A stretch of DNA of 43,341 nt from a virus. Below are positions 18,030 through 39,580 of the stretch, in pieces (position 1 is the stretch's first letter; each line of letters begins with the position of its first letter). The notes under the pieces were generated by a model. That model did no database searches. It was given only the letters and a program-made list of their open reading frames with translations, and had not been told where the DNA came from. The stretch lies in the IMG/VR virus record IMGVR_UViG_3300007265_000001, positions 1-43,341 of that record; one strand, written 5' to 3'. Made by a program: the position numbers and the translations under genes.

Positions 18030-18262
18030 GTATATTCTTCCCCTCGCATCTTCCCGTTGACTGCGCTTCCGAGTTTGATCCTGGGATAGGAAATGCTCCC
18101 GTCCTTCTCGTGCCGATGCAGCGAGTATTCTTCGAGCAGAAAGGAGAGCAGTTGCATCCAGCGCTTGTATTCTCTGCGGTTCTGCCGGTGCATGAACCAT
18201 TGCTGCGCACCGAGAACGAACACCGTCGCGCCTGCCACAACGAGAGCGTCTGGCGAGATCAC
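18026..18262 (-). CDS. Small membrane protein in the lysis block, holin candidate (78 aa)
   Basis: GTG at 18260-18262 (GTGA with the hydrolase stop). One hydrophobic helix near the N-terminus (PDALVVAGATVFVLGAQQWF) followed by a basic, charged tail (HRQNRREYKRWMQL). A short, single-helix protein directly behind the endolysin gene fits a class III holin or a lysis accessory protein. A longer frame upstream overlaps the hydrolase and is not used. Confidence 0.55.
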   Translation of the reverse strand: MISPDALVVAGATVFVLGAQQWFMHRQNRREYKRWMQLLSFLLEEYSLHRHEKDGSISYPRIKLGSAVNGKMRGEEYT

Positions 18263-18714
18263 TGGTCCTCCCCCAAAGAAGCCGGATGCGAGAATTCGGG
18301 TTTCTTGCAGAACGTGATGCCCCCAACAGTGAGCACGATTTGCACATTGCCCCACTGTCGAATGGGAGGAGCGGTTAGCGGCCTCGAATAATAGAACAGG
18401 CAGCCGCGCGTGAAGTCCTCGTCCGTATTCTCGATGACGCTTTTGGCCGCATCGATGCAATCGAGCCATGACGTTTCGCCCTCGACCGGCCATTTGTCGG
18501 AGTTCGGGTCACTTAGATTGAAGCTGCTGAATTGGTACCGCTTGAGGATGACGCCGTGGATCTCGTGCCCGCCGAAATGCCCGTCCTTCACGCGGTTGAG
18601 AATTACGTGACAGACACCACGCTTGCCGAGCATTCCTTCGCCGCGAGCTTCGCGCCAGCAGCAGAGCGCGAGGAGTTCGAGGTCGCTGATTTCGCCGTAG
18701 GGTCTGGGTTCCAC
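18259..18714 (-). CDS. Cell wall hydrolase, SleB family (endolysin)
   Basis: 151 aa. The N-terminal part carries the SleB/Hydrolase_2 signature: ELLALCCWREARGEG (catalytic Glu in WREARGE), KRGVCHVILNRVKDG, GVILKRYQFSSFN and later SWLDCIDAAKSVIEN. SleB-type enzymes are lytic transglycosylases cutting the peptidoglycan glycan strands. No signal peptide is seen, so release needs a holin, for which the small downstream membrane protein is the candidate. Full-length compared with phage relatives. Confidence 0.9.
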   Translation of the reverse strand: MEPRPYGEISDLELLALCCWREARGEGMLGKRGVCHVILNRVKDGHFGGHEIHGVILKRYQFSSFNLSDPNSDKWPVEGETSWLDCIDAAKSVIENTDEDFTRGCLFYYSRPLTAPPIRQWGNVQIVLTVGGITFCKKPEFSHPASLGEDQ

Positions 18715-19393: not shown

Positions 19394-20242
19394 ATGGCTA
19401 ATCGCATCGTACTACGCTTGCTCCCCTTCATCGCTTTACTTCTCATTTCATGCGGCAATGGCGGCTCCCCGGCTCCCGCGCCGGGACCGAAACCGATAGA
19501 TCCGTCTGGCAATTGGACGATGACCGCGACCGATGCTGGCGGCAAGAGCGTCAATTTTGCAGCTCTCTTCGCCCAGGTCGGTGCGGATGTTTCCGCGAAC
19601 AGCTTCACTGCGGCCGGCAATCCTGCACCGTTTTCGTGTGTGCCTTTCACCGCTACGCTCTCGAATGGCCTCGTCCAGAACGTGAGCAACTTCACCGGCA
19701 CGGTCACGATGGGCAGCAACTTTGGTGTGTTCACGTTCAACACCACGCTCGCCGCCGACGGCAAATCTTTCACCGGCACTTATTCGAATATGCCATCCTG
19801 CACCGGCTTGCTGCTCTCCGGAACGTTCACCGGCGCCGAGGTACCGACGACGAGTGGGAGTTGGACGGGAACCATCCAGAGTTGCAATTACAACCCGAGC
19901 GCGGGAGGACCGTGCACGGTTTTCGGCCAAGCCGTCGCCTTCACGGCTACCCTCAGCCAGAATGACGTAACGGGAAATGTGACCGGAAGCTATCAAAGCA
20001 GCGGCGCGGTTCTCGGTATTTCTTCGGGAACCATAGCGGTGAATCCTGCCGACCAAGATATTCTCAGTGGGACCGTGTGGCAATTCACGGCCACAGATAC
20101 CAATGGAAAATATATTGTCTCTGGAGGGGCGAGCCCCAGCATTCCCGCTGGCCTTGACCTTCACGGCGGATACACCGGACTCGTGGTCGGCCCGAATTCC
20201 ACCAACACTGGCGTCTACGGCTGGCTCAGCATATCGCACTAA
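19394..20242 (+). CDS. Surface lipoprotein, lysogenic-conversion (moron) candidate
   Basis: 282 aa, ATG with AAGGAG eight bases upstream. Lipoprotein signal with lipobox LLISC (Cys20), then a Gly/Pro-rich linker (GNGGSPAPAPGPKPIDP) and beta-rich repeats with N/T-rich motifs: SGNWTMTATDAGG, FTGTVTMGSNFG, SGSWTGTIQSCNY, VTGNVTGSYQS. Proteins of this style are common in Acidobacteriota genomes, usually of unknown function. It is the only gene on this strand outside the integrase operon, sits between tail and lysis genes, and converges on the 20239-20517 gene with stops overlapping by four bases. Late transcription would run antisense through it. Probably expressed from the prophage to modify the host surface. 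Confidence 0.75.
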   Translation: MANRIVLRLLPFIALLLISCGNGGSPAPAPGPKPIDPSGNWTMTATDAGGKSVNFAALFAQVGADVSANSFTAAGNPAPFSCVPFTATLSNGLVQNVSNFTGTVTMGSNFGVFTFNTTLAADGKSFTGTYSNMPSCTGLLLSGTFTGAEVPTTSGSWTGTIQSCNYNPSAGGPCTVFGQAVAFTATLSQNDVTGNVTGSYQSSGAVLGISSGTIAVNPADQDILSGTVWQFTATDTNGKYIVSGGASPSIPAGLDLHGGYTGLVVGPNSTNTGVYGWLSISH

Positions 20243-24167: not shown

Positions 24168-24797
24168 TCACTCGAGCGCCATATTCCCGCGCGGTGGACG
24201 CGGATTGTGGCTGCTGTGAGTTCCGCCCGGAACGCCGGTCCCCTTGCCCCAAACTCCATTCCAGTTCTGCACAGCGGCGACGTACTGAAAGCCGAGGTCG
24301 CCCGGGAAATCGAATTGCTGGTCGGCATCGGTATAGCGGCGCTCCCGCGAGCGATGCAGATCCACGAGCTGCGTCTCGACGGTGATCGTCGCGGTCGAAG
24401 TCTGGCCGCCCTCGTTGATCATGCCGTTGTCGATGCGGCCTGCCATTGAGGCATAGGGGTCCGCGATGACGTTGCCAGCCTCGTCCAGCGCTCCGAGCCA
24501 TACCCGGCACGGCATCCCTTGGCGAATTTCGTTGAGAACGTGCCCGAGCATGTCGGAGGGGATAGCGGAGAGCGAGAGCGAGATACCTTGAGCCGCGACG
24601 TCCGAGGTTTCAGGAAGCGCGGAGACTGCTAACAGCGAGCCGACTCCCGTCCATGTAAGGCCATTCCACTGCATCGGCCCAAGTCCAGTCCAGACGCGCA
24701 CTACCCCTGTTGAGAAGTGCGCCTCGACAAATAGCGCGGGACGCACGCGGCCTGCGGTGAAGGCGGCCTTCGTTCCTACTGTTAGATTGCGGCTCAG
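24168..24797 (-). CDS. Tail protein of the tip module, apparent CTG start (209 aa)
   Basis: Conserved features begin upstream of the first standard start: the GTG at 24744-24746 would remove VGTKAAFTAGRV, which family members keep before RPALFVEAHFSTG. Extending the frame leads to CTG at 24795-24797, exactly overlapping the upstream stop as CTGA. The body (VRVWTGLGPMQWNGLTWTGV, MPCRVWLGALDEAG, HRSRERRYTDADQQ) matches siphovirus tail proteins found between the distal tail and NlpC-like genes. Use of CTG is inferred. Confidence 0.7.
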   Translation of the reverse strand: MSRNLTVGTKAAFTAGRVRPALFVEAHFSTGVVRVWTGLGPMQWNGLTWTGVGSLLAVSALPETSDVAAQGISLSLSAIPSDMLGHVLNEIRQGMPCRVWLGALDEAGNVIADPYASMAGRIDNGMINEGGQTSTATITVETQLVDLHRSRERRYTDADQQFDFPGDLGFQYVAAVQNWNGVWGKGTGVPGGTHSSHNPRPPRGNMALE

Positions 24798-25876
24798 AGC
24801 GCTTCCACTGCCTCGAAGGAAATGCCGTAGAACTTGGCTTTATCGGCGGTCCATGGCGTCGAGTTCGATGTAAGCCGAAACATGCCGACCGAGTTAGTGA
24901 GAATCAGCGGGTCGGCATTCAGCGGCGAAGTTCGCAGCTTCGGGAAGATATCGAGCGTGACGCTGCCCGGGCCTGCATCGGTGAGGTTCTTTAGGAGTTG
25001 CCGCGTCGGGCCAGAGACGAGCGAAGTCGTCGGGATGTAATTGTTTACGACGAGGCCACGTTCGAGTTGTGCGCCCCAGAGATAATACGTTCCGGTTCCC
25101 GCGTTATTTACGGGGTCAATCATCGCTATGACATTGGGAGCGGCTGATGGCGGCAAGGTAGTTGAAACGCTATAACGCGTCCATGTTCCGGTCGGCGTGA
25201 CGGTCACGATGCCCGGATTGCCCTGTACGCCGTCGCGGATGACAAGCGCAATATTTCCCGTCAGAGTTCCAGATTTAATCCAAACCGAAAATGTGTAACT
25301 GCTCCCGGGGCTGGAAGCATCGGTCACAAGCTGATACATGAATCCGTTCGCTGCGACGTTTTGATTTATCTCGATAGTCGTGTAGCTGTTGCCATCGGGA
25401 CCGACTATCGAAGTGGAATTAACGATTGTGCCGGTCTTGATCCATGCCGCGTTCGTGAAATCCTGCGACCAAAGCAGCGAGTTCTCGCCAGCACTCCCAA
25501 TGTGGAAGTAGTCGCCAGCCTTGAGCGCGCCCGTCAGTCCACTGATGGCGAGCGTTTTTCCGGCCTGTCCTGCCCCGCTGACGATGGGCGAGCCGCCAGC
25601 CGTTCCCTGCGGCGTTTTGCCGAGCGGGTCACCAAGCAGAAAGGTTCCGGTGATTCCGCGCAAGGAAAGCAGGAACGAAATCCAGCGCTCCGCATTCACG
25701 CGCGCCATCGGAGGCAGGGAGCATTTCGCGCGCCAGAACTGGCCCGGCCATTCATAGATTTGCTGCTGCGCTGTGAACGGGCTGGCTGCGATGCCTGCGA
25801 GCGATTCGCCTATCATCTCGACGGAAGCCAATCCCGGAGGCGAGGCAGGCAGAATCAGCGGATAGGAAATGCTCAC
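24794..25876 (-). CDS. Distal tail-type protein with inserted jelly-roll domain, 360 aa
   Basis: GTG at 25874-25876 (GTGA). The ends match a conserved tail protein of about 210 residues: YPLILPASPPGLASVEM, SPFTAQQQIYEWPGQFW, PPMARVNAERWISFLLSLRG and, at the far end, TLDIFPKLR, MFRLTSNSTPWTADKAKFY. Between about 130 and 285 an extra module is inserted (WSQDFTNAAWIKTGTIV, SYTFSVWIKSGTL, YYLWGAQLERG, NYIPTT), the carbohydrate-binding-like domain widespread in phage tails. A candidate sugar-binding addition to the baseplate. Confidence 0.8.
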   Translation of the reverse strand: MSISYPLILPASPPGLASVEMIGESLAGIAASPFTAQQQIYEWPGQFWRAKCSLPPMARVNAERWISFLLSLRGITGTFLLGDPLGKTPQGTAGGSPIVSGAGQAGKTLAISGLTGALKAGDYFHIGSAGENSLLWSQDFTNAAWIKTGTIVNSTSIVGPDGNSYTTIEINQNVAANGFMYQLVTDASSPGSSYTFSVWIKSGTLTGNIALVIRDGVQGNPGIVTVTPTGTWTRYSVSTTLPPSAAPNVIAMIDPVNNAGTGTYYLWGAQLERGLVVNNYIPTTSLVSGPTRQLLKNLTDAGPGSVTLDIFPKLRTSPLNADPLILTNSVGMFRLTSNSTPWTADKAKFYGISFEAVEAL

Positions 25877-29548: not shown

Positions 29549-29947
29549 TTAAAAGATTCGGTGAACTTCAAGGTCGAGGTCGATCTGATAACTGTTGGTG
29601 AGCTTGCCGTACCCCTGCTCGCGGATATCGGCCACGAAAACAGCGCCGATATTGATTCCGTTGTAGAGACCGCGGGAGGCAAGCGCTCTCGTCCGCACCA
29701 ATTCGAGAAGCTGGCGCGCGCCGACCCATGTTTTGTCGATGCAGGAGTATTCGAGCCGTGCGATTTCCTTGTAGGCGTTGCCGTCGAGGTCGTATTCCTC
29801 ACCGGAGTTCAGCCGCGAATAGACGATGATCGGAAACGCCGTAAGTTCGGCGAGCGCGATATCGGGCATGATGCGGTCCGCGACAAGGCCTGCGATCGTC
29901 GTATCGGCCAGCAGGCGCGTGCGCAACTCTTCCTCGAGCGTGCTCAG
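29549..29947 (-). CDS. Tail terminator/completion protein (DUF3168-like), apparent CTG start
   Basis: Listed from CTG at 29945-29947, which forms CTGA with the HK97 gp10-like stop and restores the usual N-terminus (STLEEELRTRLLADTTIAG); the first standard start in frame, TTG at 29924-29926, removes it. The body (VADRIMPDIALAELTAFPI, EYSCIDKTWVGARQLLELV) matches the DUF3168/tail completion family that closes the tail tube at the neck. Family match strong, start inferred. Confidence 0.75.
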   Translation of the reverse strand: MSTLEEELRTRLLADTTIAGLVADRIMPDIALAELTAFPIIVYSRLNSGEEYDLDGNAYKEIARLEYSCIDKTWVGARQLLELVRTRALASRGLYNGINIGAVFVADIREQGYGKLTNSYQIDLDLEVHRIF

Positions 29948-30390
29948 AGCTTCACCTTGGCGCGGCGTGCGACTTTTTCGATTTCCTCGCCGAGTTCTTT
30001 CCCGAAGTTGGCGAGGACTTCCTGTGCGTGCGCGTCGAACTCGGGCTTCATGAACGGCTTCGCTGGCATCTTCACTGTGCCGAACTCGAGGAACCGGCCA
30101 TAGAACGCGCTGTCTTCCTTCGGCGAGAGCTGCAATCCGATGGACACGACAATCGTGCCGCCCTGGACGCCGTCGCCGATAAACTTCGAGCGCATCTTGA
30201 TTCCGCGTCGGAGCTTGCCGGTCAGTACGGGTGCTTGGAAGGCGATGGCCAGTTGAAGGAGCGCCATTGCTTTGCGCGCCGCCCGGCCGAGGCCTAGCTT
30301 CGCAAGGTCTTCAGGCAGCTTGAGCAGATTCGTTTCAAGCTCCTGCAGGCCGTCAATCTTTACGTCGATGAATGAGCCGACGCCCGACAT
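29944..30390 (-). CDS. HK97 gp10-like head-tail joining protein, 148 aa
   Basis: ATG at 30388-30390 (overlap TGATG). VGSFIDVKIDGLQELETNL, then LLKLPEDLAKLGLGRAARKA, TGKLRRGIKMRS and AFYGRFLEFGTVKMPAKPF match the HK97 gp10 family: the RFLEFGT and PAKPFMKPEF segments are diagnostic. It binds the neck and joins head to tail. A longer reading to 30408 is unsupported. Confidence 0.85.
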   Translation of the reverse strand: MSGVGSFIDVKIDGLQELETNLLKLPEDLAKLGLGRAARKAMALLQLAIAFQAPVLTGKLRRGIKMRSKFIGDGVQGGTIVVSIGLQLSPKEDSAFYGRFLEFGTVKMPAKPFMKPEFDAHAQEVLANFGKELGEEIEKVARRAKVKL

Positions 30391-30716
30391 CAGACGAGCT
30401 CCGTGCAAAGCATCTCGGCAACTTGACGGCGGCGGCCCACATCGATAACCGAATTTATATTCAGCGTGCGGGTATCGACGATGACGCGCATGGTGCCATC
30501 CACGCCCTGCGCATCACGCCATCGCAGGCGCACGCGGGTGCTCACCGACGGATAAAGCTGCCGCGCTTCGACCAATTCCCTGCCGCTCAACTGGACGACT
30601 TCCGCGTAGGCCTGTACGTATGTGACGTAGGCCGAATCGCGCTGCCCGGACGTATCCGCAGCGTTAGAAGGCTTGGTGATGGTCACGAAGTCCTTGAGAT
30701 GGCCGGCTTGAATCAT
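30390..30716 (-). CDS. Head-tail joining protein (HK97 gp9-like), 108 aa
   Basis: ATG at 30714-30716 (ATGA). IQAGHLKDFVTITKPSNAAD, TYVQAYAEVVQLSGRELVEA and VSTRVRLRWRDAQGVDGTMR correspond to the phage head-tail adaptor family (beta-barrel stopper). Followed directly by the gp10-like gene, as in HK97. The upstream part of this frame is antisense-like and excluded. Confidence 0.85.
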   Translation of the reverse strand: MIQAGHLKDFVTITKPSNAADTSGQRDSAYVTYVQAYAEVVQLSGRELVEARQLYPSVSTRVRLRWRDAQGVDGTMRVIVDTRTLNINSVIDVGRRRQVAEMLCTELV

Positions 30717-30940
30717 TCGCTTGGCAATGGAGATTTCTGGAGATAGGCCGAGACGCCGATGATGGCGTTGATAAGGGCCGCCGCGACGGCGATACGAATT
30801 GTCGAGCCGATGCCCGCAGCCAGATTGAAATGCTGCGGGTCGATTCCAACGGCGGCAAGGCCGGTGAGGACGCCACCCGCGCAGCCGGATATCGCCGCGG
30901 CTATGAGCCCGCGCAGCCAAAGTTCGACGGTGTGTTTCAC
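30713..30940 (-). CDS. Small two-helix membrane protein in the connector block, 75 aa
   Basis: GTG at 30938-30940 with AAGGGA upstream; its stop overlaps the gp9-like start (ATGA). Two hydrophobic stretches, LIAAAISGCAGGVLTGLAAV and IRIAVAAALINAIIGVSAYL, separated by GIDPQHFNLAAG, give a helical hairpin. Resembles a class II holin in topology, yet it lies among neck genes. It belongs to an exported/membrane cassette running to 34291. Confidence 0.65.
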   Translation of the reverse strand: MKHTVELWLRGLIAAAISGCAGGVLTGLAAVGIDPQHFNLAAGIGSTIRIAVAAALINAIIGVSAYLQKSPLPSE

Positions 30941-30952
30941 GGTCTTCCCTTC

Positions 30953-31138
30953 TTATTTGGAACTTTCGCCTGACACTTTTTCCGACCGACCAATTAAGCA
31001 GAACTTCGCCCCGCATTCTCCGCACTTAACCAATTCTGGAGGGTTAAGCTCATTGCCGAACAGCAAGGGCCTGCCGCATTGCGGGCAGAACAGCTTGTCT
31101 TTGGGCTCGGTGGCATTGTTGGGCACCCATACACTCAG
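30953..31138 (-). CDS. Zinc-ribbon protein, apparent CTG start, 61 aa
   Basis: LFCPQCGRPLLFGNELN and LVKCGECGAKFCLIG form a clear rubredoxin-like ribbon with two CxxC pairs. The preferred start is CTG at 31136-31138 (CTGA overlap with the upstream secreted protein gene); an in-frame GTG is four codons in. Short and soluble. Acts probably as a binding adaptor; its partners are the membrane and secreted proteins around it, by context only. Confidence 0.65.
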   Translation of the reverse strand: MSVWVPNNATEPKDKLFCPQCGRPLLFGNELNPPELVKCGECGAKFCLIGRSEKVSGESSK

Positions 31139-31533
31139 AACGTCGCCCCTACGCTGGCCTGCAAGGTTCCTGTTTTGCCGTCCGCGTTGAAGGCAATTCG
31201 CGCAGTGTAACCGGTGATCTTGAACGTCGTTCCGGGCACCGCTGATGCGATCGGCAGAATCACCGTGTAATCGAGCGCCGGATGTCCGTTTGCCGCGGGT
31301 GCCACAACATGAATCGTGTACAGGTCGAACGCCAGAGGCTGCGTGACCGTGGGCCATGCGCCTTCCATCGTCGCCAGCGCAACACCTTTAGAATTCGCCA
31401 GCGTCGTAGTCGCGTTCGTCACTTGCGCGCCGCTGAAGCTGCCCCAATACAAACCGAGCTGAAGCTTCGTCGATTGCGCGCGAACTGGCAGCGCAGTGAG
31501 CAGCAATGCCGCGAGCATGATCAGCTTTCTCAT
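31135..31533 (-). CDS. Secreted protein of unknown function, 132 aa
   Basis: MRKLIMLAALLLTALPVRAQ is a clear Sec signal peptide with Ala-Gln processing. The mature part is beta-rich: LQLGLYWGSFSGAQVTNAT, PLAFDLYTIHVVAPAANGH, DYTVILPIASAVPGTTFKI, with no Cys. Likely periplasmic or extracellular. It is unusual for a gene in the head-tail connector region to carry a signal peptide. ATGA overlap with the next gene. Confidence 0.7.
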   Translation of the reverse strand: MRKLIMLAALLLTALPVRAQSTKLQLGLYWGSFSGAQVTNATTTLANSKGVALATMEGAWPTVTQPLAFDLYTIHVVAPAANGHPALDYTVILPIASAVPGTTFKITGYTARIAFNADGKTGTLQASVGATF

Positions 31534-31886
31534 GTATTTACTCCCCTCACTTCAACGTCCACCTTTTGCAGTTTGCGATTCAAGCGATAGTTCTTGATCG
31601 CTGCGTACCCTCGGATTGCTATGAGGGGAATTGGTGGGACATACGAAGCGTAGTTCCAGTGGATTAAGGCGAACAGAATGGACACCGTTATGACTCCACC
31701 TGCCATGAGAGCGCCGACTACGTACAACTTCAAGCGGGACGGATGCGGTCCGTATACCGTGCTTGATTCGTATACGATTGTTACCGTGCCGCCTGGTCCG
31801 TACACGGTTCGCGGTTTCGTTGTCTCGATATCGGCGACGGTGGCGACAACCGATAGCGCGTAGGCGATGATCAGGAGGGCGGTCAT
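31530..31886 (-). CDS. Membrane protein with N-terminal signal-anchor, 118 aa
   Basis: Starts MTALLIIAYALSVVATVAD (signal or anchor), followed by a Gly/Tyr/Val-rich outer segment (RTVYGPGGTVTIVYESSTVY) and a membrane region around LYVVGALMAGGVITVSILFAL and VPPIPLIAIRGYAAI, ending with a basic tail. Two or three membrane segments. Overlaps by ATGA and TGATG with both neighbours, so made with the secreted proteins. Function unknown. Confidence 0.65.
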   Translation of the reverse strand: MTALLIIAYALSVVATVADIETTKPRTVYGPGGTVTIVYESSTVYGPHPSRLKLYVVGALMAGGVITVSILFALIHWNYASYVPPIPLIAIRGYAAIKNYRLNRKLQKVDVEVRGVNT

Positions 31887-34291
31887 CAGTTCCCCATCGC
31901 TATCGCTTTGAATTTGTACACATTCCCAGCGGTGCAGGTGCCTTGCATCGTGATTGTCAGGGTTGTGGCAGCTTCTACCCAGGTCGGAAAGAACGTCGCA
32001 GGCGTCGGAGCGACAACATCATTGCGCGAAACCATGTACTGTGGCGCAGCGGTCCACGTGCCATCCTTGAACGTCACAGTGATGACTGGATTAGCTCCGG
32101 GTGTCGTGCCACACGTTACAGAGAACGAGAATCCTTGGTCGAATCCCGTAGCCGCAGAAACGCTAGGGCCGGTGCCCCATCCGCTTGTCAGAACGATGGC
32201 TGCATCTGCGCCGGAGTAGGGCGTTGCTCCGTAACCGACCCTGTATCGTAGACCGTTAAATACCTTGGCATTGAGATTGTTCGTCGAACCCGCGCCGGGG
32301 TTCAGAAATATTCCAACCGTATTCGCATCAATAGCGCCTATCGACGGCCCCCTTACGCCATCACTGGCGGAAAATCCAGCGGTCTGAAAAGGCGGTAGGT
32401 AGTTAGTGGATTGCCCGAATGAATTCCTTGTAGAGGCGAGAGTACCGAAAGAGTTGTTGGACAAGTCCTGAAGTTGAAGCCCTCGCGTGGGCCTCACATA
32501 TAAATCCGACGTATCAATGGCCTGAATCTTTCCACCGGGGGTATTCAGCCCTGTGATATCAGTGTTGAAGGTAAGCGACGTGACCGTGCTCGAAGCATTT
32601 GCGATTCCTCTTGGACTGGCTCCATTCAAAAACACACCGAAGCCCAGTTGCTGCCAAAGAAGGTTCGATTCCGCCACTTGACCGAGCGTCGTCTGATGCG
32701 GACTGCCGACATCCGTAATCCATCCGAGAGCTTTTTGTGTCGGGTAGTCGATGGTTGGATAGTAGCCGTCCCAGTAGACATCGTTGTTGGCCTGAGCCAC
32801 AGTGCGAGTCGTGGCGTTGTTGCCTAGCTGCTCTGAGTTGCTGGACAGGACAGGCGAACTTCCTATGAACAGAAAATCCACCTGCGGGTTAGCCGTTTTC
32901 CAGTTGGCGCGAAATGTACTGAGGTGAGAGAGGAATGTGGAACCATCCGAGTAGACGCCGTTAGTCGTTGCCTCTTTCATCTCAAAGGTAACAATGTCGG
33001 GAGCGAGAGCGGAGTACCAGGGAGCCGTCACCGCTGTCGGGCACAGGTCCACCTGATTCAAATCCAGTCCGCCGCGCGCGATGAGGATTAGAACAGCGCC
33101 GTTGATGGTGGAGTTTTCAAAAGTAGGCCCGAACACGTTCACTGTCGCGCCCGTAGCGCAGGCTTGGATTTTGTAAGGGCCTGTGTCCGGCATCGTTGCG
33201 GTCGCAACTGAGCCGATGGTGGTCGCATTCGCAGCACTCGTTGTGCTCTGCATCACAAATCCCGCACCATTTTTGTTGGTGTTGAATTGGAGACTGCCCG
33301 CTCCGGGCTCCTTCACGTAAAGAAGTGAGAGTTGGTTTGCTGTGAAATACCCGCCACCTATACCCCACGTTACGCAGCCGCCAGCGGGAATGATGTAATA
33401 AACCCCGGTCGGACTCCGCGTATAGTCGTAGGGAAGACTGCTGCCGTCGATTATGGCTGCGCCACCACTGAAGGCGTCATTCGTTACGCAAGAACCACCC
33501 TGCCCAGTAGGAATTGTTCCTTGGCAAGAAATGTCCACCCCAGCATTCCCAAAACTATCGCGCAGCCCCGCCGCAACCGCATTCGCATGAAACCCCGCAA
33601 CCGAATCACCCCACACCAGCACACGCAACTTCGCGGGGGGAGCTGTCTGCATTGCCGCAATTTTTGTGAGCGTCGAGCGAAGCGTGGCGGTGCCGCCTGT
33701 AAAGAGGCCTGTTGAAGGCCCTCCGCCCGTATTGCAGGTCCAAGACAATCCCGTCCACTGTGGGAATCCGCCGAGCGATAAGCAATTCGCTGGCGACGTT
33801 AGCTGCGCGAACGGCATGGATAACAGCGGAGATGGCGCGGCCGCAGTCCGGATGTTGATGAGTTTTACCGGCCCGCTTGCCGGGATAATCCATGTCTCCG
33901 TGAATCGTTTCGTTGTCGTGTAATAGTCAGCCGTGTAGTACGTGCCTGACGGAGTCGAGCCTGCGTTCGGGACGAGAGCAATGCTGAAATTTCCCGTCGC
34001 GTTTAGCGTGACCGTGACGCGCTGGCCCAACGGAACGACGAAATTGTCAGCCGATGTGAAGGTCTGCGCGGAAGTGATTGTGATCGTGCCTTGCGCATAG
34101 CTACCATCAGGCGCAAAGAGCTGGTCGGCGACGGTGACTTTCGCGGGTGCTTGCGCGAATGCAGAAAACACCAAGCAGGCGGCTGCAAAGAGCAGAACTG
34201 CGAGGCGCCCCAGGAGGGGAGCGCCCCGTTTGCGCCAGTTCTGCCTTCCGCCCGCCGCGCCCGTGTAACGCCGCGAGCCGAAAGAGATCAT
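31886..34291 (-). CDS. Secreted SGNH/GDSL-hydrolase-like protein with spike-like domains, 801 aa
   Basis: ATG at 34289-34291, one base after the connector gene stop; the longer frame upstream has no clear ribosome site. Residues 25-46 are a signal peptide (LGRLAVLLFAAACLVFSAFA), exceptional for a gene in this location. A beta-rich N-terminal domain (about 50-150) contains PDGSYAQGTITITSAQTF and GTYYTADYYTTTKRFTETW. The central domain has LRVLVWGDSVAGF (Ser230 in the GDS block) and GSPHQTTLG later, the SGNH esterase layout. The C-terminal 250 residues are beta-rich. Likely deacetylates or cleaves surface glycans; if exported it acts outside the cell, if virion-bound it is a receptor depolymerase. 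Exact role unresolved. Confidence 0.75.
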   Translation of the reverse strand: MISFGSRRYTGAAGGRQNWRKRGAPLLGRLAVLLFAAACLVFSAFAQAPAKVTVADQLFAPDGSYAQGTITITSAQTFTSADNFVVPLGQRVTVTLNATGNFSIALVPNAGSTPSGTYYTADYYTTTKRFTETWIIPASGPVKLINIRTAAAPSPLLSMPFAQLTSPANCLSLGGFPQWTGLSWTCNTGGGPSTGLFTGGTATLRSTLTKIAAMQTAPPAKLRVLVWGDSVAGFHANAVAAGLRDSFGNAGVDISCQGTIPTGQGGSCVTNDAFSGGAAIIDGSSLPYDYTRSPTGVYYIIPAGGCVTWGIGGGYFTANQLSLLYVKEPGAGSLQFNTNKNGAGFVMQSTTSAANATTIGSVATATMPDTGPYKIQACATGATVNVFGPTFENSTINGAVLILIARGGLDLNQVDLCPTAVTAPWYSALAPDIVTFEMKEATTNGVYSDGSTFLSHLSTFRANWKTANPQVDFLFIGSSPVLSSNSEQLGNNATTRTVAQANNDVYWDGYYPTIDYPTQKALGWITDVGSPHQTTLGQVAESNLLWQQLGFGVFLNGASPRGIANASSTVTSLTFNTDITGLNTPGGKIQAIDTSDLYVRPTRGLQLQDLSNNSFGTLASTRNSFGQSTNYLPPFQTAGFSASDGVRGPSIGAIDANTVGIFLNPGAGSTNNLNAKVFNGLRYRVGYGATPYSGADAAIVLTSGWGTGPSVSAATGFDQGFSFSVTCGTTPGANPVITVTFKDGTWTAAPQYMVSRNDVVAPTPATFFPTWVEAATTLTITMQGTCTAGNVYKFKAIAMGN

Positions 34292-34292
34292 G

Positions 34293-34967
34293 TCAGTACC
34301 AGTAATTTCCAAACCCATAATATTTCTCCCAATCAAAGCGATGGCCGTTCCTTGCGGACCAAAGCATCGACTCCAAGCTGTAGGGAAGTTTTTGCAGGCT
34401 CATGTTGACTGGAACGGGTTCGCGATTCTCGTTCCAGTGCGCGACCAAAAACTTGACGGCCATCTTCACCGCGCTATCAACTTTCGTTGGATCGTCCGTC
34501 GCGCCGCTCATCCCGCAAGTGAAAATGATATTCATCGCGCCCGGAACCCAAAGAGCGGTTGGAAAAAAACCGTTGTAGGGGGGGTAGAGAGCAGACGGCC
34601 GTTCATCGAGCGCCGCCTGGAAAAATGACGGGGTATTTATGTTCTGCGTGACATTGTTCAAATCCTGATAGGTGAACGTATCGATTGTCAGCACCGGGCC
34701 GCGCGGGAGGAGAATAGGCTTACCCAAGGGATAGCGCCTATCGAAACCGTCGCGGTTGTACGGGAATTGGTCGGCCTTAAGAGTCCAGCCTTGCTTCATG
34801 ATCGAAATGCCGGCGAGACCCTCGACCCATTGCGTCGCAGCTTCCAGATATGCACTCAGCACAATGTCGTCGCCGCTTGTGGACGATGTGATGCGCAATA
34901 CGTCGTACAACTCCTGTAGTTGGAAAAGCTGCTTCACCGGCGCCGTTGTGCGGACGAGTGAGCTCAA
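34293..34967 (-). CDS. Head-tail connector protein (gp6-like), 224 aa
   Basis: TTG start at 34965-34967 forms TTGA. QLFQLQELYDVLRITSSTS, YLEAATQWVEGLAGISIMK, FPYNRDGFDRRYPLGKPILL and the C-terminal AVKFLVAHWNENREPVPV are as in the gp6/DUF-type head-tail connector family, which docks on the portal after DNA packaging. Longer than typical by a middle loop (NNVTQNINTPSFFQAALDER). Position between capsid and the exported cassette matches the connector block. Confidence 0.8.
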   Translation of the reverse strand: MSSLVRTTAPVKQLFQLQELYDVLRITSSTSGDDIVLSAYLEAATQWVEGLAGISIMKQGWTLKADQFPYNRDGFDRRYPLGKPILLPRGPVLTIDTFTYQDLNNVTQNINTPSFFQAALDERPSALYPPYNGFFPTALWVPGAMNIIFTCGMSGATDDPTKVDSAVKMAVKFLVAHWNENREPVPVNMSLQKLPYSLESMLWSARNGHRFDWEKYYGFGNYWY

Positions 34968-39028: not shown

Positions 39029-39580
39029 CTAGGTAAGTGGTTGCCTAAGAATCGTAAATGGAGCGCGAACACCGGCGCTGAAGCGTTCAGCCGCTTCTAA
39101 TGCGACGCGGACTCTAGTGTCTGCTGTCGGTGCGTTGCCGAGAGCATGCAACGCGCCCTTGGCGATTTGCTCGCCGCAACCGCACGCGGCGAAATTCGCC
39201 GATTCCTCTTCCACTTGATAATCGGCATGGACGGTGAACAGATGGCCAGCGACGCCGACGAGAAAGGTGCCCCCAGATTCCTGGTCCTTGTCTTTCACAG
39301 CGTAGCCGCCGTCTTTCAAAGAAGCCCTGACGGCATCAACGAAATCCGAAACCATCCATTCAAAAAGTTCTTGGCCTGGCTTTCTTTCGGGAACCTTCAA
39401 TTTGTATCTGAGTAGCTGCCCCATGCGGAATGAGGATGTGAAACCCATGATGCACGACCCATTTATAAAAACCTTCGGGTCCTTCCTCATACTCAAATCC
39501 CAACCGCCTACTCCCGCGGAATCGCCGCCCATAACGACGCCGCCCTTGTCTTGGTCGATTACTCCGACGATGCAGGTCAA
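39029..39580 (-). CDS. Proteasome-beta-like Ntn hydrolase, 183 aa
   Basis: TTG start with GGAG eight bases upstream, forming TTGA with a tiny upstream frame. After Met removal the protein begins with Thr2-Cys3, then IVGVIDQDKGGVVMGGDSAG, matching the first strands of proteasome beta/HslV subunits (T1...GGVVxAxD); Lys36 in DPKVF takes the place of catalytic Lys33, with GSCIMGFTSSFRMGQLL following. Further segments (GGTFLVGVAGHLFTVHAD, FAACGCGEQIAKGALHA) fit the Ntn fold. Phage relatives are known but poorly characterised. Its place between TerL and portal suggests a role in head assembly, or it may act on host or bacterial proteins. Nucleophile assignment is by alignment only. Confidence 0.8.
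   Translation of the reverse strand: MTCIVGVIDQDKGGVVMGGDSAGVGGWDLSMRKDPKVFINGSCIMGFTSSFRMGQLLRYKLKVPERKPGQELFEWMVSDFVDAVRASLKDGGYAVKDKDQESGGTFLVGVAGHLFTVHADYQVEEESANFAACGCGEQIAKGALHALGNAPTADTRVRVALEAAERFSAGVRAPFTILRQPLT

Follow-up and report, generated by a model that had tools for sequence, protein, structure and literature searches.

Why should a tailed phage place an export signal on a protein made together with its head-tail joining genes? Assembly of tailed-phage virions is assumed to be entirely cytoplasmic, and export signals on tailspikes are unexpected for proteins of such particles. The question is raised by a soil phage, virus record IMGVR_UViG_3300007265_000001, whose full 43,341 nucleotides are called the window here, and in which five genes lie between those for the head-tail adaptor and the head-completion protein (30713-34291, minus strand). 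The largest of them encodes a protein of 801 amino acids (aa) with a signal peptide and SGNH-like motifs. The explanation moderately favored here is that this protein would be an accessory spike, an adhesin joined to an SGNH-type carbohydrate esterase, which is made late with the head-tail genes and exported by the Sec pathway. It would be one case among many tailspikes and fibres that soil phages export.

The 801-aa SGNH-like protein

The gene (31886-34291, minus strand, ATG start) was described from its open reading frame (ORF), hydropathy, motifs, and a relative in another phage. Its product opens with a Sec-type signal peptide ending in FSAFA, with a predicted cut before Q near residue 46; the call comes from a simple rule and from inspection. 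The signal is followed by a beta domain (about residues 48-152), an SGNH-like region (about 200-560), and a C-terminal domain (about 665-801). The SGNH motif blocks were read by eye. Block I is found as WGDS at 227-230 (motif WGDSV) and Block V as D527 and H532 in ITDxxSPHQTTLG, with a spacing longer than D-x-x-H; both are kept in the relative from locus L097, and SGNH catalysis is putative on the basis of these motifs. An AlphaFold model, built from two sequences only (pLDDT 32), predicts a beta-rich insertion at low confidence.

Direct searches with the 801-aa protein in phages, genome contigs, and the PDB gave no match, and neither did its N-terminal domain alone in viral contigs; this domain has a weak likeness to a fibre N-terminal domain (hhalign E 1.3e-4, probability 54). 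The C-terminal domain used as query recovered, beyond a near-identical contig, two phage relatives, L097 and L098. The domain in L098 (54% identity) ends a fibre-like protein of 703 aa that has no signal peptide. L097 is a different phage, with a capsid and a terminase from other PHROG families, and the SGNH region and C-terminal domain of its protein are 72% identical to those of the window. The gene lies within the structural block of L097, where it overlaps the end of a large gene that precedes the capsid gene and is portal-like from its position, and it stands there without the other four insert genes. Six cysteines are common to both proteins. The L097 protein also starts with a signal peptide, MAGRGKRFLPALLLLLAPAARGQG; the N-terminal domain behind it differs from that of the window. 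As far as sequence can tell, the signal has persisted through an exchange of the N-terminal domain, which supports the exported-spike reading.

Signal peptides on spike-like proteins of soil phages

Signal peptides on large ORFs were counted in two sets of loci, one gathered through relatives of a 75-aa two-helix protein encoded at the end of the insert, the other through relatives of the window's capsid. They occur on 43 of 281 large ORFs in the two-helix set (5.2 expected from shuffles) and on 9 of 318 in the capsid-relative set (5.6 expected), many of the loci being fragments and the sampling through one small gene being biased. Counted by cluster, the figures are 23/112 and 5/124 (Fisher p 7e-5), with some kinship remaining among clustered sequences. 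The cysteine content of the signal-peptide proteins is about twice as high (cluster medians 1.73% vs 0.83%, p 2e-4; paired within loci, p 9e-6), an enrichment to be expected for an oxidising compartment. Gln occupies position +1 in 18 of the 53 cleavage sites predicted in the two-helix set.

Several of these proteins can be tied to known tail components. One from L198 holds a pectate-lyase-like (Pect-lyase) domain above the Pfam cut-off together with PHROG tail-spike matches, and one from L199 matches a PHROG tail fibre (1e-42). For a fibre from L150, modelled with AlphaFold (16 sequences, pLDDT 66), the PDB folds that match best are tailspikes, with low TM-scores. Judged by sequence, the signal-peptide proteins of these soil phages are spike-like. 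The open-access literature searched yielded no description of signal-peptide tailspikes in tailed phages.

The domain behind the L097 signal is homologous to that of signal-peptide fibres of 1150-1400 aa, of an L179 protein, and of Tunturi_1 gp12 (hhalign E 5e-6, 8e-8, and 3e-5), Tunturi_1 being a phage grown in culture on the acidobacterium Tunturiibacter (PMC11924767). A signal peptide precedes the shared domain in 26 of 27 proteins (23 by rule, three by eye), and the remaining one is a fragment. Across the 26 the character of the signal is kept without conservation of its sequence, and a Cys pair is conserved in the signal-peptide proteins. The same domain is found near a bare N-terminus in Marinomonas phage P12026 (tail protein), Sulfitobacter phage phiGT1 (tail spike), and Nocardia phage P3.1, with E-values computed for a five-sequence set. 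Because these three versions have neither the signal peptide nor the Cys pair, the signal looks like an addition ahead of a spike N-terminal domain. The P3.1 protein (L214, 2887-3279), a 130-aa hypothetical protein by the capsid gene, consists mostly of this domain alone.

In Tunturi_1 and Tunturi_2, gp12, gp13, gp14, gp16, and gp17 all start with signal peptides, and every large spike candidate between the neck and lysis genes bears one. Two of these proteins are annotated as tail spike/fibre or virion protein, and gp14 is annotated as tail spike/pectin lyase. No mention of signal peptides was found in the paper describing these phages (PMC11924767). No homologue covering a Tunturi_1 spike over its whole length was found in the viral loci, and tblastn was empty as well. 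At least some of the phages with such spikes appear to infect Acidobacteriota. The frequent Gln at +1 resembles the Q-rule reported for Bacteroidetes (PMC5837995), yet Tunturi_1, whose spikes have the same trait, infects an acidobacterium.

The insert in the connector block

The late genes of the window lie on the minus strand, and all three genes of an HK97-type connector module are present: a gp6-like head-tail adaptor (34293-34967; PF05135, E 6.6e-6; phrog_442, E 3e-16) upstream of the insert, a head-completion protein (30390-30716; PF05521, E 5e-17; phrog_25) downstream of it, and an HK97 gp10-like neck or tail-completion protein (29944-30408; PF04883; phrog_5, E 3e-21). In the 55 loci that have both flanking genes, reached through capsid relatives and the adaptor, the two genes are normally adjacent, with a median gap of 0 and at most 200 bp in 51. 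A gap above 300 bp occurs only in the window (3268 bp), L043 (3275 bp), L006, and L005. The first-pass annotation had proposed that five genes intervene between the adaptor and the joining genes, and this stands, with all five ORFs open. It had also described the genes as overlap-coupled throughout, which is true of most junctions: a 1-nt gap separates adaptor and SGNH gene, the SGNH and 118-aa genes overlap by 1 nt, the 118-aa and 132-aa genes by 4 nt (ATGA), and the 75-aa and head-completion genes by 4 nt. The zinc ribbon and 75-aa genes are separated by 12 nt.

The slot in L043 (6617-9879) is filled by other genes, read as fibre-like cargo: one encodes a repeat protein of 640 aa, and the 107-aa product of another matches phrog_1084. 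Fibre-like genes stand elsewhere in the capsid-to-neck block of L032, L055, L021, and L028, which are related to the window through their capsids. Given these inserts, the capsid-to-neck region is a recurrent insertion place for cargo of fibre or adhesin type, in which the window's cargo is its own. The idea of an insert unique to this phage was rejected. The fibre-like gene of L032 (12022-13581) has a signal peptide, and that of L055 (11930-14485) has GDS and DGVH motifs; both lie between capsid and neck genes.

The smaller genes of the insert are on the minus strand too. The 118-aa membrane protein (31530-31886) shows two hydrophobic stretches by hydropathy (1-23 and 52-83) and a weak match to phrog_27425, "membrane protein" (E 0.011); it had been taken for a simple signal anchor, and the two stretches make a two-helix protein likelier. 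The 132-aa protein (31135-31533; ORF and hydropathy) has a signal ending in MRKLIMLAALLLTALPVRA, with a predicted cut before Q, and is probably an exported partner. The zinc ribbon (30953-about 31126; GTG start, uncertain) has four cysteines in CPQC and CGEC motifs, best Pfam matches below cut-off, and a match to the translational regulator phrog_6417 (E 0.015). These three proteins have no homologue beyond the near-identical contig in the sequence sets searched. Small signal-peptide proteins occupy an analogous place in L180, L184, L194, L199, L206, and Tunturi_1 (gp16), with no sequence similarity where tested; the one in L119, on the same contig as L180, is an FN3 protein by PF00041, and the 132-aa protein shows no similarity to this FN3 companion of L180.

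The 75-aa protein (30713-30940, GTG start) has hydrophobic helices at 7-34 and 38-69 by hydropathy. Its family ends in AYLxxSPLP and was found by pattern and alignment scans in 67 loci, many of the relatives being 70-80% identical. It matches no holin profile in PHROGs or Pfam, and the endolysin-like gene of the window (18259-18714) lies away from it. In L186, L189, L190, L194, L196, and L202, the two-helix gene adjoins genes for endolysins or spanin-like lipoproteins, which suggests that the 75-aa protein is probably a lysis protein of holin type. The gene also comes after a large signal-peptide protein in L179 (1020 aa), L187 (612 aa), L143 (621 aa), and L198 (928 aa). A run of five signal-peptide genes in L194 (4193-9742) precedes the two-helix gene and a pair of genes for Rz/Rz1-like lipoproteins, and L191 (1480-19365) encodes five large signal-peptide proteins (422-1492 aa), with up to 44 cysteines in one.

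The same five-gene set was sought in other phages and is common only to the window and one near-identical contig, and the five genes were accordingly rejected as one conserved export system. What recurs is a looser order, that of the window: large signal-peptide protein, small signal-peptide protein (134-139 aa), two-helix protein, as in L180, L184, and L194, whose signal-peptide genes are not homologous to those of the window where tested. The suggestion of a secreted spike or depolymerase accompanied by export or anchoring helpers thus survives in its first half, as a spike- or esterase-like signal-peptide protein with soil-phage relatives. The helpers are not supported: the set is not conserved, L097 has the SGNH gene alone, and the two-helix family also occurs in lysis cassettes.

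Proposed mechanism and competing explanations

In the mechanism proposed for the accessory spike, its translation would follow that of the adaptor within the late operon, as the gene order indicates, presumably by coupling. The protein would then be exported and cut by signal peptidase, as its sequence predicts, and fold in the periplasm with disulfide bonds, to which the conserved cysteines point. More speculatively, it would be released when holin and endolysin open the cell, and then either be mounted on the neck or tail of the particle or act on glycans of the released envelope; at the next infection it might deacetylate surface polysaccharide. Sec export itself is likely, and attachment of the exported spike to the virion is plausible rather than probable. 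More tentative still is the general form of the proposal, that one class of soil tailed phages, infecting at least Acidobacteriota, makes Sec-exported, disulfide-stabilised periplasmic tailspikes that meet finished particles only at lysis, the SGNH protein of the window being such a spike at the neck.

Several points weigh against this. Heads and tails of tailed phages assemble in the cytoplasm, and a periplasmic spike therefore needs a joining step after lysis. Virion presence and localisation are predictions from sequence, as is the spike/esterase reading, and the signal peptides were called by a simple rule and eye, not by SignalP. The label of SGNH hydrolase, given in the first-pass annotation, keeps its GDS and D/H motifs, but no Pfam or PHROG profile exceeds its cut-off with the 801-aa protein (best Pfam PF19040, E 0.08-0.21, 11.7-13 bits vs a curated 27), and the G-x-N of Block III is unrecognisable, its strand reading FEMKEAT (FEMKTNG in L097). 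The fibres of Tunturi_3 and Tunturi_4 have no signal peptide, and the feature is therefore not universal in Acidobacteriota. An acidobacterial host is suggested only via the domain common to L097 and Tunturi_1; the four capsid relatives from genome contigs are all alphaproteobacterial.

In the main rival reading the exported enzyme stays out of the virion altogether: it would be a moron, an esterase or depolymerase that is secreted or held at the surface, which would alter glycans of the infected or lysogenic cell and thereby block superinfection, keep progeny off debris, or aid release. The signal-peptide and cysteine evidence fits it too, an enzyme-like SGNH region needs no virion, and morons with signal peptides, such as lambda Lom, are known among tail genes (PMC12309495). 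It is nonetheless considered unlikely, as the signal-peptide proteins have spike or fibre architecture and domains of tailspikes that lack the signal, and the large spike candidates of Tunturi_1 and Tunturi_2 leave no obvious signal-less tailspike in the block. Were the N-terminal hydrophobic segment instead an uncleaved membrane or particle anchor, the protein would be cytoplasmic or membrane-bound and a normal virion fibre, like L098, the relative by C-terminal domain, which is an ordinary fibre without the signal; the export signal is, after all, a prediction. The n, h, and c regions with A-x-A sites, the Gln at +1, the cysteine enrichment, and the signal character conserved across proteins sharing one domain make such an anchor improbable. 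Very improbable is an insert of chance cargo, a host-derived secreted enzyme with unrelated small genes in a permissive site. The unrelated cargo of L043, the inserts nearby in other relatives, and the lack of conservation of the five genes together would suit it, but fibre-like cargo turns up again and again, a second phage has the SGNH protein among its structural genes, a phage fibre carries the C-terminal domain, and no relative was found in genome contigs.

If a large group of soil phages does export its spikes first, spike attachment would be a post-lysis, extracytoplasmic step of virion assembly, and a new kind of link would join assembly, host recognition, and lysis. Such spikes would at present be misfiled by annotation pipelines, either as secreted proteins of the host or as auxiliary metabolic genes, and the viral "secreted CAZymes" of soil would need re-examination. 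The cultured Tunturi_1 and Tunturi_2 make the idea directly testable.

Other genes of the window

Between the terminase and portal genes lies a gene for an HslV/proteasome-like peptidase (39029-39580, minus strand; phrog_1040, E 2.5e-21), with no homologue in the 80 capsid-relative loci. A 282-aa lipoprotein-like gene (19394-20242, plus strand; LLISCGNGG), without a plasmid match, stands amid the late minus-strand genes, close to those for lysis, and is a candidate surface moron. The distal tail protein (24794-25876, minus strand) has an insert beyond residue 130 that matches the host-range/tail families phrog_5499 and phrog_5939 and is probably a carbohydrate-binding module.

Comparison with known systems

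The trimeric tailspikes and depolymerases of HK620, Klebsiella K1/K2, and Pam1, the best fold matches of a relative's model, are alike in their large multidomain beta build, with an N-terminal attachment domain and a glycan-acting middle, and in a gene position near the neck or before the lysis genes. Known tailspikes have no signal peptide, whereas the proteins of the window and the soil phages have Sec-type signals and extra cysteines. SGNH/GDSL esterases share the GDS and D/H motifs in order; the window protein departs from them in profile score, in G-x-N, and in the insertion predicted at low confidence. Lambda Lom is likewise a signal-peptide protein encoded within tail genes, but is an outer-membrane beta-barrel and not a spike-like multidomain protein (PMC12309495). 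The gp12-gp17 region of Tunturi_1 and Tunturi_2 (PMC11924767) also combines large signal-peptide proteins with a small one (gp16) between neck and lysis genes, and gp12 shares its N-terminal domain with the SGNH protein of L097; an SGNH protein or a two-helix homologue was not seen there.

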